A DNA stretch of 64,000 nt, taken from contig NZ_CP104011.1 of the NCBI RefSeq assembly GCF_025133575.1, forward strand, positions 1,240,001-1,304,000, read 5' to 3'. Origin of the DNA: Pseudomonas sp. GCEP-101. Its GTDB lineage: Bacteria; Pseudomonadota; Gammaproteobacteria; Pseudomonadales; Pseudomonadaceae. Numbering within the stretch: position 1 is the first letter of the stretch; every line of letters begins with the position of its first letter. Made by a program: the position numbers and the translations under genes. Positions 17,401-51,127 of the stretch are shown piece by piece. The notes under the pieces are model-generated. The model saw only the letters and a program-made list of their open reading frames with translations. It had not been told where the DNA came from and ran no database searches.

Positions 17401-17474
17401 GTGATCAGCTTTTCTCTTTTTACCGCGCCATCCGCTTAACTCTTTCTTTTCTCTGGAAATCCAAGACCTTCCCG

Positions 17475-19904
17475 ATGCGCCTGCTGAAGTTTCTGTGGTG
17501 GACCTGTGTCACCATTATTTGTGGAGTGCTGCTCAGTTTCAGCGGCGCCTATCTGTACCTCAGCCCGAACCTCCCGTCCGTGGAGGCCTTGCGCAACGTG
17601 CGCTTGCAGATGCCGCTGCGCGTGTACAGTGCTGATAACAAATTGATAGCAGAGTTTGGCGAGATGCGCCGAACGCCGATTCGATTTGCTGAAATCCCCC
17701 CGGATTTCACCCACGCACTGTTATCGGCTGAAGATGACAATTTCGCCAACCATTATGGCGTGGACGTCAAAAGCCTGATGCGTGCTGCCGCGCAATTATT
17801 GAAGACCGGCCACATCCAGACCGGCGGCAGTACCATCACCATGCAGGTGGCGAAGAACTACTTCCTCACCAACGAACGCAGTTTCTCCCGCAAGATCAAC
17901 GAGATATTGCTCGCCCTGCAGATCGAGCGCTCGCTCACCAAGGACGAGATCCTCGAGCTCTACGTCAACAAGATCTACCTGGGCAACCGCGCCTACGGCG
18001 TCGAAGCCGCCGCCCAGGTGTATTACGGCAAGTCCATCAAGGACCTGAGCCTGGCGCAGATGGCGATGATCGCCGGTCTGCCCAAGGCGCCGTCGCGCTA
18101 CAACCCGCTGGCCAACGCCGCGCGCAGCCTGGAGCGTCGCAACTGGATCCTCGAGCGCATGCTCAAGCTGGGCTTCATCGACCAGGCGCGCTACCAGGCC
18201 GCCATCCAGGAGCCGGTGGGCGCCTCGTACCATGTACAGACGCCGGAGCTGGCCGCCCCCTACATCGCCGAGATGGCCCGCGCCGAACTGGTCGGCCGCT
18301 TCGGTGGCGATGCCTATACCGAGGGCTATCGCGTCTACACCACCGTGCGCAGTGACCTGCAGGAGGACGCCAACACCGCCCTGCGCGAAGGCCTGCAGGA
18401 CTACGACCAGCGCCATGGCTACCGCGGGCCGGAAACCCGCCTGCCGGGCAAGACCCGTGACGCCTGGCGCCAGGCGATTGCCGAGCAGCGCCCGCTGGGC
18501 GGCCTGGAGCCGGCCATCGTCACCCAGGTCGAGAAGAGCGGCGCCATGGTCATGACCCGCGACGGCAAGGAAGAAGCCCTGAGCTGGGACGGCATGAAAT
18601 GGGCCCGCCCGTACCTGAGCAACAACAGCATGGGCCGCATGCCCAGCCAGCCCAGCGACGTGGTGCAGGCCGGTGACGTGATCCGCGTGCAACGCAAGAG
18701 CGATGGCTCGCTGCGCCTGACCCAGGTGCCGGCCGCGCAGAGCGCGCTGGTGTCCCTGCATCCGCAGGACGGCGCGATCATGGCGCTGGTCGGCGGCTTC
18801 TCCTTCGAGCAGAGCAACTACAACCGCGCCACCCAGGCCCGTCGCCAGCCCGGTTCCAGCTTCAAGCCGTTCATCTACAGCTGCGCGCTGGACAACGGCT
18901 TCACCGCCGCCTCGCTGATCAACGACGCCCCGGTGGTGTTCTACGACGAGTACCTGGACAAGGTCTGGCGGCCGAAGAACGACACCAACACCTTCCTCGG
19001 CCCGATCCCCATGCGCGAGGCGCTGTACAAGTCGCGCAACATGGTGTCGATCCGCATCCTCCAGGCACTGGGCGTCAATCGCGCACGGGACTGCATCAGC
19101 AAGTTCGGCCTGAACAAGGACGACCTGCCGCCGAACCTGTCCATGGCCCTGGGCACCGCGACCCTGACGCCGATGGAAATCGCCGGCGCGTGGACCGTCT
19201 TCGCCAACGGCGGCTTCAAGGTCTCCCCCTACATCGTCCAGCGCATCGAAAGCCGCGACGGGCAACTGCTGTACCAGGCCAACCCGCCCAGCATTCCCCA
19301 CGACGAGGAACAGGTGCCGGCGCAACCGGAAGCAGCCAGCACCGACGCCTTCGGCAATGACGACCCGACCCAGGCCAAGACTACCGTCGAGCCGGCCGCC
19401 GCCGAGCGCGTCATCGACGCCCGCACCGCCTACATCATGACCAGCATGCTGCAGGACGTGATCAAGCGCGGCACCGGCCGCCGGGCCCTGGCGCTCAAGC
19501 GTGATGACCTGGCGGGCAAGACTGGCACCACCAACGAGTCCAAGGACGCGTGGTTCTCCGGCTACAACGCCGACTACATGACCACCGTCTGGGTCGGTTT
19601 CGACCAGCCGGAAAGCCTCGGTCGCGCGGAATACGGCGGCAACGTCGCCCTGCCGATCTGGATGCGCTACATGGGCGCGGCGCTCAAGGACAAGCCGTCG
19701 CACCTGCTGCCCGAGCCGCCCGGCCTGATCAGCCTGCGCATCGACCCGGTGACCGGTCGCGCGGCAGGCCCCGGCACGCCGGGCGCGTACTTCGAACTGT
19801 TCAAGAAGGAGGACACGCCTCCAACGATGAGCGAGCTGCCTCGCGGCAGCGCTCCGGGCGGCGGCATGCCGGCGGACGAAGAAGCGCCCATCGACCTGTT
19901 CTGA
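17475..19904 (+). CDS. ponA: Penicillin-binding protein 1A (bifunctional peptidoglycan synthase)
   Basis: Class A PBP (also called mrcA) of 809 residues that polymerises lipid II and cross-links the strands. It has a short cytoplasmic N-terminus and one membrane helix near residues 9-29. The GT51 transglycosylase domain has its catalytic glutamate at E86 (AEDDNF) and GGSTITMQ near 117. An OB-like domain sits near 320-420. The transpeptidase has nucleophile S461 in SSFK, SRN near 525 and K682 in KTGT. The ATG is preceded by a weak SD. Gene order (divergent from pilM) is as in P. aeruginosa. A terminator-like hairpin follows. Confidence 0.98.
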   Translation: MRLLKFLWWTCVTIICGVLLSFSGAYLYLSPNLPSVEALRNVRLQMPLRVYSADNKLIAEFGEMRRTPIRFAEIPPDFTHALLSAEDDNFANHYGVDVKSLMRAAAQLLKTGHIQTGGSTITMQVAKNYFLTNERSFSRKINEILLALQIERSLTKDEILELYVNKIYLGNRAYGVEAAAQVYYGKSIKDLSLAQMAMIAGLPKAPSRYNPLANAARSLERRNWILERMLKLGFIDQARYQAAIQEPVGASYHVQTPELAAPYIAEMARAELVGRFGGDAYTEGYRVYTTVRSDLQEDANTALREGLQDYDQRHGYRGPETRLPGKTRDAWRQAIAEQRPLGGLEPAIVTQVEKSGAMVMTRDGKEEALSWDGMKWARPYLSNNSMGRMPSQPSDVVQAGDVIRVQRKSDGSLRLTQVPAAQSALVSLHPQDGAIMALVGGFSFEQSNYNRATQARRQPGSSFKPFIYSCALDNGFTAASLINDAPVVFYDEYLDKVWRPKNDTNTFLGPIPMREALYKSRNMVSIRILQALGVNRARDCISKFGLNKDDLPPNLSMALGTATLTPMEIAGAWTVFANGGFKVSPYIVQRIESRDGQLLYQANPPSIPHDEEQVPAQPEAASTDAFGNDDPTQAKTTVEPAAAERVIDARTAYIMTSMLQDVIKRGTGRRALALKRDDLAGKTGTTNESKDAWFSGYNADYMTTVWVGFDQPESLGRAEYGGNVALPIWMRYMGAALKDKPSHLLPEPPGLISLRIDPVTGRAAGPGTPGAYFELFKKEDTPPTMSELPRGSAPGGGMPADEEAPIDLF

Positions 19905-26675: not shown

Positions 26676-28673
26676 TCAGGCGTCGAGCAGCTCGGCAGCG
26701 ACTTCCAGCACGTTCTCGACGGTGAAGCCGAAGTGCTCGAACAGCGCCGGGGCCGGGGCCGACTCACCGAAGGTGGTCATGCCGATCACGCGGCCTTCCA
26801 GGCCCACGTACTTGTACCAGTAGTCGGCGTGGGCGGCTTCGATGGCGATGCGCGCACCCACCTGGACCGGCAGAACGGCCTGCTTGTAGCCGGCGTCCTG
26901 CTGGTCGAAGACGCTGGTGGACGGCATGGACACCACGCGCACCTTGCGGCCTTCGGCGCTGAGCTTGTCGAACGCCTGCACCGCCAGGCCGACTTCGGAG
27001 CCGGTGGCGATCAGGATCAGTTCCGGCTCGCCGTCGCAGTCCTTGAGTACGTAGGCGCCACGGGCCACGTCGGCCAGCTGAGCGGCGTCGCGCGGCTGGT
27101 GCGGCAGGTTCTGGCGGCTGAAGATCAGCGCGGACGGGCCGTCGGCACGCTCGATGGCGTATTTCCAGGCCACCGCGGACTCCACGGCATCGGCCGGGCG
27201 CCAGGTGTCCAGGTTCGGGGTCAGGCGCAGGCTGGCCAGTTGCTCGATCGGCTGGTGGGTCGGGCCGTCTTCGCCCAGGCCGATGGAGTCATGGGTGAAC
27301 ACGTAGAGCACGCGCTGCTTCATCAGGGCGGACATGCGCACCGCATTGCGGGCGTATTCCATGAAGATCAGGAAGGTCGCGCCATAGGGGATGAAGCCGC
27401 CATGCAGGGCCACGCCGTTCATGATGGCGCTCATGCCGAACTCGCGAACGCCGTAGAACACGTAGTTGCCATTGGCATCGTCCGCACTCACGCCCTTGCA
27501 GCCTTTCCACAGGGTCAGGTTGGAACCGGCGAGGTCGGCGGAGCCGCCGAGGAACTCCGGCAGCAGCGGGCCGAAGGCGTTCAGCGCGTTCTGGCTGGCC
27601 TTGCGGCTGGCGATGGTTTCGCCCTTGACGGCGACGTCGGCGACGTAAGCCGCGGCCTTCTCGGCGAAGTCGGCCGGCAGCTCACCGGCAACGCGGCGCT
27701 GGAACTCGGCGGCCAGTTCCGGGTGCGCGGCCTGGTAGGCGGCGAAGCGCTTGTTCCACTCGGCCTCGGCGGTGGCGCCAGTGTCCTTGGCGCTCCACTC
27801 GGCGTAGATGTCCGCCGGGATCTCGAACGGCGCGTGGTTCCAGCCCAGCGCGGCGCGGGTGGCGGCCACTTCGTCGACGCCCAGGGCGGCGCCGTGGCTT
27901 TCTTCCTTGCCCTGCTTGTTGGGCGAGCCGAAGCCGATGATGGTCTTGCAGCAGATCAGGGTCGGCGCGTCGCTCTTGCGGGCGGTCTCGATGGCGGTCT
28001 TGATCTCGTCGGCATCATGCCCGTCGACGTTGCGGATCACCTGCCAGCCGTAGGCCTCGAAGCGCTTGGGGGTGTCGTCGGTGAACCAGCCGTGGACTTC
28101 GCCGTCGATGGAGATGCCGTTGTCGTCGTAGAAGGCGATCAGCTTGTTCAGGCGCAGGGTGCCGGCCAGCGAGGCGACTTCATGGGAGATGCCCTCCATC
28201 ATGCAGCCGTCGCCCAGGAAGGCGTAGGTGTAGTGATCGACGATGCGGTGGCCGTCGCGGTTGAACTGCGCGGCCAGCACCTTCTCGGCCAGCGCCATGC
28301 CCACGGCGTTGGCGATGCCCTGGCCCAGCGGGCCGGTGGTGGTCTCAACGCCGGCGGTGTAGCCGTACTCCGGGTGGCCCGGGGTGCGCGAGTGCATCTG
28401 GCGGAAATTCTTCAGGTCATCGACGGTGACGTCGTAGCCGGTGAGGTGCAGCAGCGAATAGATCAGCATCGAGCCGTGGCCGTTGGACAGCACGAAGCGG
28501 TCGCGGTCGGCCCATTGCGGGTTGCTCGGGTTGTGCTTGAGGTAATCGCGCCAGAGCACTTCGGCGATATCCGCCATGCCCATGGGGGCGCCAGGATGGC
28601 CGCTGTTGGCTTTCTGCACGGCATCCATGCTCAGTGCGCGGATGGCGTTGGCTCGCTCACGACGGCTGGGCAT
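26676..28673 (-). CDS. tktA: Transketolase
   Basis: Thiamine-diphosphate enzyme of the pentose phosphate pathway; moves two-carbon units between sugar phosphates. From the ATG at 28673 ([19 protein letters not shown]) it has 665 residues, the usual length. An in-frame extension to 28811 lacks family sequence. Cofactor site [18 protein letters not shown] is near residue 155. The Pyr domain has [19 protein letters not shown] near 410, and the substrate region near 355-365 includes [12 protein letters not shown]. It heads the minus-strand cluster and diverges from the ArsR-type regulator gene. Confidence 0.98.
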
Positions 28674-28836
28674 CGCTGAATCTCCTGCGGGGGCTGCTTC
28701 GAAAGATCGAAGGGAATGAAAAAAGGCCGGTATTTTCGCCCAGCCGGGCCCTGCGGGGCAATGACAGATCGGCAGATGCCTGATGCAAGGCACGCTCCTG
28801 CGCCGCCCCACTGGTCAAAAACCACTCATCCGCCAA

Positions 28837-28854
28837 TATCAAAACTTTTTGATA
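28837..28854. promoter_or_regulatory. 18-bp palindrome, candidate operator of the ArsR-type regulator
   Basis: TATCAAAACTTTTTGATA: two perfect 8-bp arms around CT. It ends 6 bp before the -35 box of the regulator-metK promoter and lies in the divergent region shared with tktA. Its size and symmetry fit a winged-helix dimer such as the ArsR-type protein encoded next to it. Confidence 0.6.
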
Positions 28855-28860
28855 CAGCTA

Positions 28861-28889
28861 TTGCCCGCCCCGGAACCCGCGACTAGACT
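28861..28889 (+). promoter_or_regulatory. Candidate promoter of the regulator-metK unit
   Basis: TTGCCC (28861-28866), a 17-bp spacer and TAGACT (28884-28889). The start site would be at about 28896, only 2-4 bases before the ATG at 28899, so the message would be essentially leaderless. No SD is visible before the ATG, which agrees. Confidence 0.5.
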
Positions 28890-28898
28890 GCGCCACCT

Positions 28899-29900
28899 AT
28901 GAGTCTGCGCCTGCCCGAAATCCGCCACGACGATTGCGACCAGCTGGCTGCCCTGTGCAAGGCCGGCGGCGATCCGCTGCGGCTGAACGTGCTGCGGGTA
29001 CTGGCCAACGATTCGTTCGGCGTGCTGGAACTGGCGCATATTTTCGGCGTGCGCCAGTCGGGCATGAGCCACCACTTGAAGGTGCTGGCCCAGGCCGGTC
29101 TGGTAGCCACCCGCCGCGAAGGCAACGCGATCTTCTATCGCCGCGCCCTGCCGCAGGCCGAGAGCCTGGGCGGCACGCTGCACGGCGCACTGCTCGAGGA
29201 AGTCGACGAACTGGCCCTGGCCGATGACGTCAGCGCCCGCATCGATGGCGTGCACGCCCAGCGTGCGGCCGTCAGCCGCGACTTCTTCGCCCGCAGCGCG
29301 GAGAAATTCCAGGCGACCCAGGACCTGATCGCAGGACTGCCGCAATACCGCGAAAGCGTGCTGGCGCTGCTCGATGCACTGAGCTTCGCCCCCGGCGCCA
29401 CGGCGCTGGAAGTCGGCCCCGGCGACGGTGGATTCCTCCCGGAGCTGGCCCGGCGTTTCGATCAGGTCACCGCGCTGGACAACAGCGAGACCATGCTCGA
29501 AATGGCGCGGCAACGCTGCGCCAGTGAAGGTTTGAACAACGTCCGGCTGCGGCTGGCCGACGCCCTGCGGGATGTCGACGACGCGGCGGATTGCGTGGTG
29601 CTGAACATGGTCCTGCACCACTTCGCCGCACCGGCCGAGGCCGTGAAGCAGCTGGCGCACCTGGTGAAACCCGGTGGCAGCCTGCTGGTGACCGAACTCT
29701 GCAGCCACGACCAGAGCTGGGCCCGCGAGGCCTGCGGGGATCTGTGGCTTGGGTTCGAACAGGAAGACCTGGCCCATTGGGCCGACGCCGCCGGGCTCGC
29801 GTCCGGCGAAAGTGTGTACATCGGTTTACGTAATGGCTTTCAGATCCAGGTACGGCACTTCGCCAAGCCGGATTCGCGAAGCGTCCTCACCCACCGGTAA
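28899..29900 (+). CDS. ArsR-type regulator fused to a SAM-dependent methyltransferase
   Basis: 333 residues. An N-terminal winged helix of the ArsR type covers residues ~20-85 (LRLNVLRVLANDSFGVLELA, then recognition helix VRQSGMSHHLKVLAQAGLV and wing REGNAIFYR). No cysteine metal site of the classic ArsR kind is present. The C-terminal half is a class I methyltransferase with motif I EVGPGDGG at 171-178, followed by VTALDNSETMLEMARQR and VVLNMVLHHFAAPAEAVKQLAHLVKPGG. It lies 18 bp before metK and is probably co-transcribed. A likely reading is a sensor of SAM or SAH that controls the methyl cycle, as known for ArsR-family SahR; the fused domain could be sensor or enzyme. Confidence 0.88.
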   Translation: MSLRLPEIRHDDCDQLAALCKAGGDPLRLNVLRVLANDSFGVLELAHIFGVRQSGMSHHLKVLAQAGLVATRREGNAIFYRRALPQAESLGGTLHGALLEEVDELALADDVSARIDGVHAQRAAVSRDFFARSAEKFQATQDLIAGLPQYRESVLALLDALSFAPGATALEVGPGDGGFLPELARRFDQVTALDNSETMLEMARQRCASEGLNNVRLRLADALRDVDDAADCVVLNMVLHHFAAPAEAVKQLAHLVKPGGSLLVTELCSHDQSWAREACGDLWLGFEQEDLAHWADAAGLASGESVYIGLRNGFQIQVRHFAKPDSRSVLTHR

Positions 29901-29918: not shown

Positions 29919-31109
29919 ATGAGCGAATACTCTGTTTTCACCTCCGAATCCGTCTCCGAAGGCCATCCGGACAAGATCGCGGACCAGATTTCCGATGCGG
30001 TGCTCGACGCCATCATCGCCAAGGACAAATACGCCCGCGTGGCCTGCGAGACCCTGGTGAAGACCGGTGTCGCGATCATCGCTGGTGAAGTCACCACCTC
30101 CGCCTGGGTCGACCTGGAAGAGCTGGTGCGCAAGGTCATCATCGACATCGGCTACAACAGCTCCGACGTCGGCTTCGACGGCGCCACCTGCGGCGTGCTG
30201 AACATCATCGGCAAGCAGTCGGTGGACATCAACCAGGGCGTCGACCGCGCCAAGCCGGAAGACCAGGGCGCCGGCGACCAGGGCCTGATGTTCGGCTACG
30301 CCAGCAACGAAACCGACGTGCTGATGCCGGCGCCGATCTGCTTCTCCCACCGCCTGGTGGAGCGCCAGGCCGAAGCGCGCAAATCCGGCCTGCTGCCGTG
30401 GCTGCGCCCGGACGCCAAGTCCCAGGTCACCTGCCGCTACGAAAACGGCAAGGTGGTCGGCATCGACGCCATCGTCCTGTCGACCCAGCACAACCCGGAA
30501 GTCAGCTACAAGGACCTGCGCGAAGGCGTGATGGAGCTGATCATCAAGCAGGTGCTGCCGGCCGAACTGCTGCACAAGGACACCCAGTTCCACATCAACC
30601 CGACCGGTAACTTCGTGATCGGCGGCCCGGTGGGCGACTGCGGTCTGACCGGCCGCAAGATCATCGTCGACTCCTACGGCGGCATGGCCCGCCACGGCGG
30701 CGGCGCGTTCTCCGGCAAGGACCCGTCCAAGGTCGACCGTTCCGCCGCCTACGCCGGCCGCTACGTGGCCAAGAACATCGTCGCTGCCGGCCTGGCCGAG
30801 CGTTGCGAGATCCAGGTGTCCTACGCCATCGGCGTGGCCCAGCCGACCTCCATCTCGATCAACACCTTCGGCACCGGCAAGATCGGCGACGACAAGATCG
30901 TCCAGCTGGTCCGCGAGCACTTCGACCTGCGCCCGTACGCGATCACCAAGATGCTCGACCTGCTGCACCCGATGTACCAGCCGACCGCGGCCTACGGCCA
31001 CTTCGGTCGCAACCCGTTCGAAATGACCTACGACGGCGACACCTTCACCGCCTTCACCTGGGAGCGCACCGACAAGGCTGCCGCCCTGCGTGACGCCGCC
31101 GGCCTGTAA
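29919..31109 (+). CDS. metK: S-adenosylmethionine synthetase
   Basis: Makes SAM from methionine and ATP. At 396 residues it is of normal length. The start [23 protein letters not shown] carries the conserved HPDK methionine/ATP motif. [12 protein letters not shown] is near residue 118 and the P-loop-like [19 protein letters not shown] near 263. An SD-like AGGA lies 9 bp upstream of the ATG. It follows the ArsR-methyltransferase gene closely and ends in a strong terminator. Confidence 0.98.
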
Positions 31110-48060: not shown

Positions 48061-49635
<1,575 letters not shown>

Positions 49636-49642
49636 TGCGCCG

Positions 49643-49673
49643 GAGGGCAGACGAGCAATCGTCTGCCCTCTTT
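49643..49673 (+). terminator. Terminator-like hairpin after ahcY
   Basis: Perfect 12-bp stem GAGGGCAGACGA/TCGTCTGCCCTC with a GCAA loop and only TTT after it, 7 bp past the stop codon. The next gene starts 20 bp further, so it may act as a partial attenuator inside the operon. Confidence 0.7.
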
Positions 49674-49693
49674 GCCATCTGGAACACGAGCGC

Positions 49694-50224
49694 ATGAACC
49701 TGCAGGACAGCTACAACCAGGCCTGGCTCTTCGCCGCCGGCGCTCACGCCGGGCAGACGCTGACCGCCTCGACGCTGCCCTATGCCGTGCACCTGGCGAT
49801 GGTCGCCAACGAAGTCATGGCGGCCGACCGCGAAGCGCCTGTCGAGCGCCTGGCGGAGACCGTCCAGATCGCCCTGCTGCACGACGTGCTCGAAGACACC
49901 GCGGTGCCCTTCGAGGAACTGCAGACGCGTTTCGGCGAGTTCGTCGCCGATGGCGCCCGGCACCTGAGCAAGGTGCTGAATGGCCAGAAGCTGCCGTTGG
50001 ACACCTACCTCCAAAGGCTGGCGACCGGCGCGCCGCAGTATGCGATCGTCAAGCTGTGCGACCGGATCACCAACCTGCAGCCGCCACCCTCGACCTGGGC
50101 GCGGAGCAAGATCGCCGACTACCACGTGGAGTCGCAGCGCATTCTGGATGCCCTCGGCCATGTCCACGGGCCCAGCGCCGAGCGACTGCGTGCGAAGATA
50201 GACAACTACCGCCGTTACTTCTGA
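49694..50224 (+). CDS. Small HD-domain hydrolase resembling (p)ppGpp hydrolases
   Basis: 176 residues, soluble. It has the metal-site pattern of RelA/SpoT-type alarmone hydrolases: HAGQ near 18, PYAVHLAMVA with H33, the HD pair H63-D64 in LLHDVLEDT, and D123 in KLCDRITNLQ. FGEFVADGARHLSKVL matches the FGxxVAxxVxxL stretch of SpoT and MESH1. No synthetase, TGS or ACT domain is present, so it would be a stand-alone small alarmone hydrolase or a related nucleotide phosphohydrolase. It lies between ahcY and metF, reads the same way, and may share the riboswitch-controlled transcript. The same place is held by a gene in P. aeruginosa (from memory). Confidence 0.82.
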   Translation: MNLQDSYNQAWLFAAGAHAGQTLTASTLPYAVHLAMVANEVMAADREAPVERLAETVQIALLHDVLEDTAVPFEELQTRFGEFVADGARHLSKVLNGQKLPLDTYLQRLATGAPQYAIVKLCDRITNLQPPPSTWARSKIADYHVESQRILDALGHVHGPSAERLRAKIDNYRRYF

Positions 50225-50278
50225 AGTCGACGGCACATGCCGGCAGCCACGCCATGACGGGGCGCCGAAGGAACGACC

Positions 50279-51127
50279 ATGAGTCAGAAAGAACGCCGTT
50301 TCAGCTTCGAGTTCTTCCCCGCCAAGACCGAAGCCGGCCATGAAAAACTGCTGGCCACCGCGCGCCAGCTGGCCGCGAAAAAACCCGACTTCTTCTCCTG
50401 CACCTACGGTGCCGGTGGCTCCACCCGCGACCGCACCCTGACCACCGTGCTGCAACTGGACGGCGAAGTGCAGGTGCCGACCGCGCCGCACCTGTCCTGT
50501 GTCGGCGACACCAAGGGCGAACTGCGCGCGCTGCTGGCCCACTACAAGGACGCCGGCATTCGTCGTATCGTCGCCCTGCGCGGCGACCTGCCCTCGGGCA
50601 TGGGCATGGCCAGCGGCGAGCTGCGCTACGCCAACGAACTGGTGGAATTCATCCGCGCCGAAACCGGCGACCACTTCCACATCGAAGTTGCCGCCTATCC
50701 GGAAGTTCACCCGCAGGCACGCAATTTCGAGGATGATCTGGCGAATTTCGTGCGCAAGGTCAAAGCCGGCGCCGACTCCGCCATCACACAATACTTCTTC
50801 AACGCCGACAGCTACTTCCATTTTGTCGAGCGAGCGGAGAAACTCGGTGTCAGCATTCCGGTCGTACCGGGTATCATGCCGATCACCAACTACACCAAAC
50901 TGGCCCGCTTCTCCGACGCCTGTGGCGCGGAAATCCCCCGTTGGATTCGCAAGCAGCTGGAAGCCTACGGCGACGACATCGCCAGCATCCAGGCCTTTGG
51001 TGAGCAGGTCATCACCGACATGTGCGAACGTCTCCTCGAAGGCGGCGCACCCGGTCTGCATTTCTACACCCTGAACCAGGCTGAACCCAGCCTGGCGCTC
51101 TGGAACAACCTCAAGCTCCCCCGCTGA
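50279..51127 (+). CDS. metF: 5,10-methylenetetrahydrofolate reductase
   Basis: FAD enzyme that reduces methylene-THF to methyl-THF, the methyl donor for methionine synthesis from homocysteine. 282 residues, a little short of the 290-296 common in the family but complete. RFSFEFFPAKTEAG at the start holds the catalytic glutamate. YGAGGSTRDRT, APHLSCVG, ALRGDLP, YPEVHPQA and ITQYFFNADSYFHF are the usual motifs. It follows the HD gene by 54 bp; ahcY, HD gene and metF form one methyl-cycle unit. Confidence 0.97.
   Translation: MSQKERRFSFEFFPAKTEAGHEKLLATARQLAAKKPDFFSCTYGAGGSTRDRTLTTVLQLDGEVQVPTAPHLSCVGDTKGELRALLAHYKDAGIRRIVALRGDLPSGMGMASGELRYANELVEFIRAETGDHFHIEVAAYPEVHPQARNFEDDLANFVRKVKAGADSAITQYFFNADSYFHFVERAEKLGVSIPVVPGIMPITNYTKLARFSDACGAEIPRWIRKQLEAYGDDIASIQAFGEQVITDMCERLLEGGAPGLHFYTLNQAEPSLALWNNLKLPR

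Follow-up and report, generated by a model that had tools for sequence, protein, structure and literature searches.

What does the regulator gene that immediately precedes metK in Pseudomonas sp. GCEP-101 respond to, which promoter does it govern, and which of its neighbours belong to the circuit? The window, meaning the whole stretch of DNA that was analysed, comprises 64,000 nucleotides (contig NZ_CP104011.1, positions 1,240,001 to 1,304,000) and carries the following features at this locus:

28899..29900, + strand: sahR, 333 aa; ArsR winged helix at about residues 11-82, helices at 92-145, class I methyltransferase fold at 147-322
29919..31109, + strand: metK, S-adenosylmethionine synthetase (TIGR01034, 603.8 bits), same operon as sahR
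28836..28855, no strand: predicted SahR operator, conserved 20-bp unit ATATCAAAACTTTTTGATAC, fitting ATC-N10-GAT, with 8-bp arms at 28837-28844 and 28847-28854
28861..28889, + strand: predicted sahR-metK promoter, TTGCCC at 28861-28866, 17-bp spacer, TAGACT at 28884-28889; start site inferred

NCBIfam and Pfam both place an N-terminal ArsR-type helix-turn-helix (Pfam residues 24-71) and a C-terminal class I SAM-methyltransferase domain (Methyltransf_11/23/25, about 153-296) in the sahR product, and in its AlphaFold model (mean pLDDT 89.9) a winged helix is followed by connecting helices and then by a methyltransferase fold. The joining of an ArsR-type DNA-binding domain to a SAM-binding methyltransferase fold, noticed earlier from the sequence, was thereby confirmed. 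As whole-chain Foldseek matches (O-methyltransferases and similar) showed an rmsd of 16-20 over the whole chain, domain-level matches alone were used; at this level, the methyltransferase domain of the model matched SAH- or SAM-bound methyltransferases with a Z of about 22 and an rmsd of 2.4-2.6. A sequence search for a solved structure of an ArsR-methyltransferase fusion found none. The motif I glycines G173, G175 and G177 and the acidic residue D194 are invariant across 39 homologues, and from general knowledge of the class I methyltransferase fold we take them to be the residues holding SAM or SAH.

Fusion of an ArsR helix-turn-helix to a methyltransferase-type domain is a trait of SahR, and the SahR of Desulfovibrio is reportedly an SAH-responsive repressor, as described by Novichkov et al. 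in 2014. Leyn et al. 2014 present SahR as an ArsR-family SAH-responsive regulator found in 8 of the 8 Pseudomonadaceae that they examined; its core targets are sahR, ahcY, metH, metF and metK, and its 20-bp palindromic motif, ATC-10 nt-GAT, is common to SamR (PMC4239095). In P. aeruginosa, PA0547/PA14_07110 was named sahR and called a SahR orthologue, and the sahR mutant is sensitive to hypochlorous acid (PMC7950407). For the rhizobial Ensifer aridi, sahR expression was found to be highest in the sahR deletion, supporting autorepression, and the same paper cites Novichkov et al. 2014 for a Desulfovibrio SahR whose binding to its operators depends on the SAH level (PMC8877191). The 20-bp palindrome upstream of sahR agrees with the published SahR motif. 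The open reading frame at 28899-29900 is SahR, a previously described regulator, and the observation is real, already known and ordinary. Its product shares 98% identity with a homologue from a P. nitroreducens strain, and a contig search with the protein gave Pseudomonas, and neither Desulfovibrio nor P. aeruginosa, among the matches listed. In a maximum-likelihood tree that does not contain the Desulfovibrio protein, the proteins encoded next to the palindrome group in a single clade (100/100), separate from the class-level homologues that are linked to metH or metF. The latter make up a clade of their own with 27-35% identity to the sahR product and, judged by gene context, look like SamR; the class-level homologues of this kind (L108-L115) carry no such palindrome.

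The core of the 20-bp unit (28837-28854) reads TATCAAAA-CT-TTTTGATA. Both 8-bp arms are perfect and the central CT is not palindromic, so the description as an 18-bp perfect palindrome was slightly overstated. Bare 8-2-8 inverted repeats occur five times in the window, which makes the palindrome no rarity as a plain repeat; its weight comes from its conservation. It was found in all 80 named loci, which had been retrieved via the protein and not via the palindrome, its edge lying 42-43 bp before the sahR ATG, and likewise in 30 of the 30 first family loci. It also precedes sahR at eight loci from other families of the order, in relatives of 38-55% identity. Five of these eight were retrieved by the palindrome itself, and for them the informative point is that the best palindrome of the genome fell before sahR; the other three (L198, L202, L204) were retrieved via metK. 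Near metK no palindrome was found in four genomes without an adjacent sahR (G002, G029, G093, G095), and in G002 and G029 the sahR protein has no match anywhere in the genome (E 1e-40).

Next to the palindrome, TTG-N17-TAGACT follows downstream in 80/80 loci, which bears out its placement directly before the promoter. A sigma-70 consensus scan did not detect this promoter, whereas the conservation footprint did. The distance from TAGACT to the sahR ATG is 8-9 nt at all 80 loci (28884-28901 in the window), and none of them shows a Shine-Dalgarno-like sequence within the last 20 nt before the ATG. The 5' end of the sahR mRNA therefore probably lies no more than a few bases from the ATG, i.e. the mRNA is probably leaderless; a literature search for sahR transcription start-site data found nothing. 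Relative to the inferred start, the palindrome is centred at about -50, upstream of the -35 element, a position that would fit an activator role as well. The 18-bp spacing between sahR and metK, given correctly in the earlier note, has counterparts of 9-19 bp in 80/80 named loci, and this operon gap together with the conserved promoter places both genes under the operator, as far as the sequence tells.

The search of the genome and of methionine-gene promoters that had been suggested yielded no second good site. In the 6.23-Mb genome the palindrome is the sole match with fewer than two mismatches, and the window holds no further match with up to three mismatches (0 expected). A position-weight scan, which covered the window including ahcY and metF as well as the metH locus, returned the sahR site alone for the window, and by motif scan metH, ahcY and metF of this genome have no operator. 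The whole genome was covered by pattern scans, in which the number of matches to 18-mers and 20-mers with up to three mismatches was close to that for the reversed control. A different SAH sensor is predicted about 19 kb away in the window, so that protein and RNA sensors lie on the same stretch:

48091..48202, + strand: SAH riboswitch (Rfam RF01057, 62.6 bits), just before ahcY

Behind it come, one after the other on the + strand (48091-51127), ahcY (start at about 48226), an HD-domain-like open reading frame (49694-50224, labelled by eye) and metF (50279-51127). Rfam further annotates asponA, an anti-ponA RNA (17449-17744, - strand, 257 bits), and a TwoAYGGAY RNA motif (815-937, + strand, 54.8 bits) in the window. 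As to relatives, in genome G101 of the same order the palindrome recurs almost unchanged, as ATATCGAAATATTTTGATAT (L042, 1501-1520), before an apparent MetE-like methionine synthase gene, and several Pseudomonas have kept a weaker palindrome of the CAATCAAACCAAATTGATAT type between cheB-like and sensor-kinase-like genes (L206-L212, about 1950-2050). We rejected the latter as an operator, as it is a weak match in six relatives, is degraded here and has no methionine gene adjacent, and likewise a match between enoyl-reductase-like and cytochrome-oxidase-like genes, seen in two relatives and again with no methionine gene adjacent (gene names by eye in both cases).

The explanation that we favour, with a probability of roughly 0.9, is that this gene is the sahR of Pseudomonas near P. 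nitroreducens, whose operator-bound dimer represses sahR-metK and is released by SAH. Starting from the domains and fold, the operon and the conservation of operator and promoter, all observed in the sequence, two SahR subunits would sit on the 20-bp palindrome, next to the -35 element on its upstream side, and so repress the sahR-metK promoter; repression and autoregulation are carried over from papers on relatives, and the dimeric binding is our inference. SAH, a ligand taken from the same literature, would on build-up fill the pocket for SAM or SAH in the C-terminal methyltransferase fold. SAH-bound SahR would then leave the DNA and sahR-metK would be expressed, which presupposes a coupling of pocket to DNA and the same behaviour of exactly this protein as of its relatives. 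The position of the operator upstream of -35 and the missing sites at the core targets ahcY and metH speak against this reading. The earlier note had proposed a direct SAM/SAH feedback loop. The core of this idea holds: metK is most likely under the control of a fusion of DNA-binding and SAM/SAH-binding domains that has an operator of its own. Feedback by SAM as the end product is not supported, the studied homologue sensing SAH. Because this published ligand is a by-product, the loop would be one of induction by a by-product and not of SAM end-product feedback.

The same regulator could nevertheless have SAM, the product of MetK, as its true ligand, in which case metK would be repressed by its end product in the classical way, a mode of control proposed for the relative SamR. 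That the sole good operator governs sahR-metK and that ahcY is no target here would suit this alternative, and Leyn et al. 2014 argue that SamR senses SAM precisely because its regulon contains metK but none of the other SAM-cycle genes (PMC4239095). The same authors, however, assign the Pseudomonadaceae to SahR and not to SamR (PMC4239095), the palindrome is of the SahR type and the protein of the window falls outside the SamR-like clade, so that we regard SAM as an unlikely ligand.

The palindrome had further been described as shared with a divergent neighbour:

26676..28673, - strand: tktA, transketolase; predicted bystander

By position this is correct, and the divergent arrangement recurs at 69/80 loci as well as in some of the order's other families, as would be expected if the palindrome were a shared operator that also controlled tktA and formed a link between the pentose phosphate pathway and SAM metabolism. 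The palindrome, however, follows sahR: it is kept at the same place in the 11/80 loci without divergent tktA, so control of tktA is not supported. While the ATG-to-ATG spacing of tktA and sahR ranges from 189 to 354 bp, that of palindrome and sahR is fixed, and the sequence between palindrome and tktA has diverged where palindrome and TTG-N17-TAGACT are kept in 80/80. Moreover, a separate conserved block belonging to tktA lies upstream of that gene near 28730-28769, at a distance of some 75 bp to the palindrome. A joint operator appears improbable on these grounds, and tktA is most likely a neighbour outside the circuit, which corrects the earlier idea. Regulation via methyl transfer by an active C-terminal methyltransferase, also raised before, is highly improbable, as the described mechanism of the SahR family needs ligand binding only and no substrate is known, even though the SAM-binding residues are intact and the modelled fold is that of active enzymes.

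Returning to SahR as an SAH-released repressor, we tentatively suggest, at somewhat less than even odds, that the Pseudomonas regulator has shrunk to a self-contained, leaderless sahR-metK switch with a single operator, the SAH riboswitch having taken over ahcY-metF. If true, a single metabolite would be sensed in two ways, through a protein where SAM is made and through an RNA where SAH is recycled. In the table of Leyn et al. 2014, the eight Pseudomonadaceae carry SahR in eight cases and the SAH riboswitch in seven (PMC4239095); as these species are counted as SahR carriers all the same, operators at ahcY, metH and metF are not strictly defining for SahR. Independent footprinting confirms the published regulon in a species group in which the protein, as far as we found, had not previously been tested. 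The findings point to a neat division of one cycle between two unlike SAH sensors, and to no new kind of system.

Compared with known systems, the regulator stands closest to the published SahR (Desulfovibrio; Leyn 2014; PA0547), likewise an ArsR-family SAM-cycle regulator with a 20-bp ATC-N10-GAT palindrome and sahR and metK as targets, and differs from it in the one good operator found in this genome, with ahcY-metF under the SAH riboswitch and metH without a site. SamR of Xanthomonadales (Leyn 2014) is a distant SahR homologue that also controls methionine/SAM genes including metK, but has about 30% identity, linkage to metH and a 24-bp motif. The SAH riboswitch RF01057 senses SAH of the SAM cycle within the same window, but is an RNA, belongs to a separate operon and does not control metK. 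MetJ of E. coli resembles SahR in that a ligand from the SAM pathway governs the genes of methionine/SAM synthesis, yet it is an unrelated repressor with SAM as its ligand and MET boxes as its sites.
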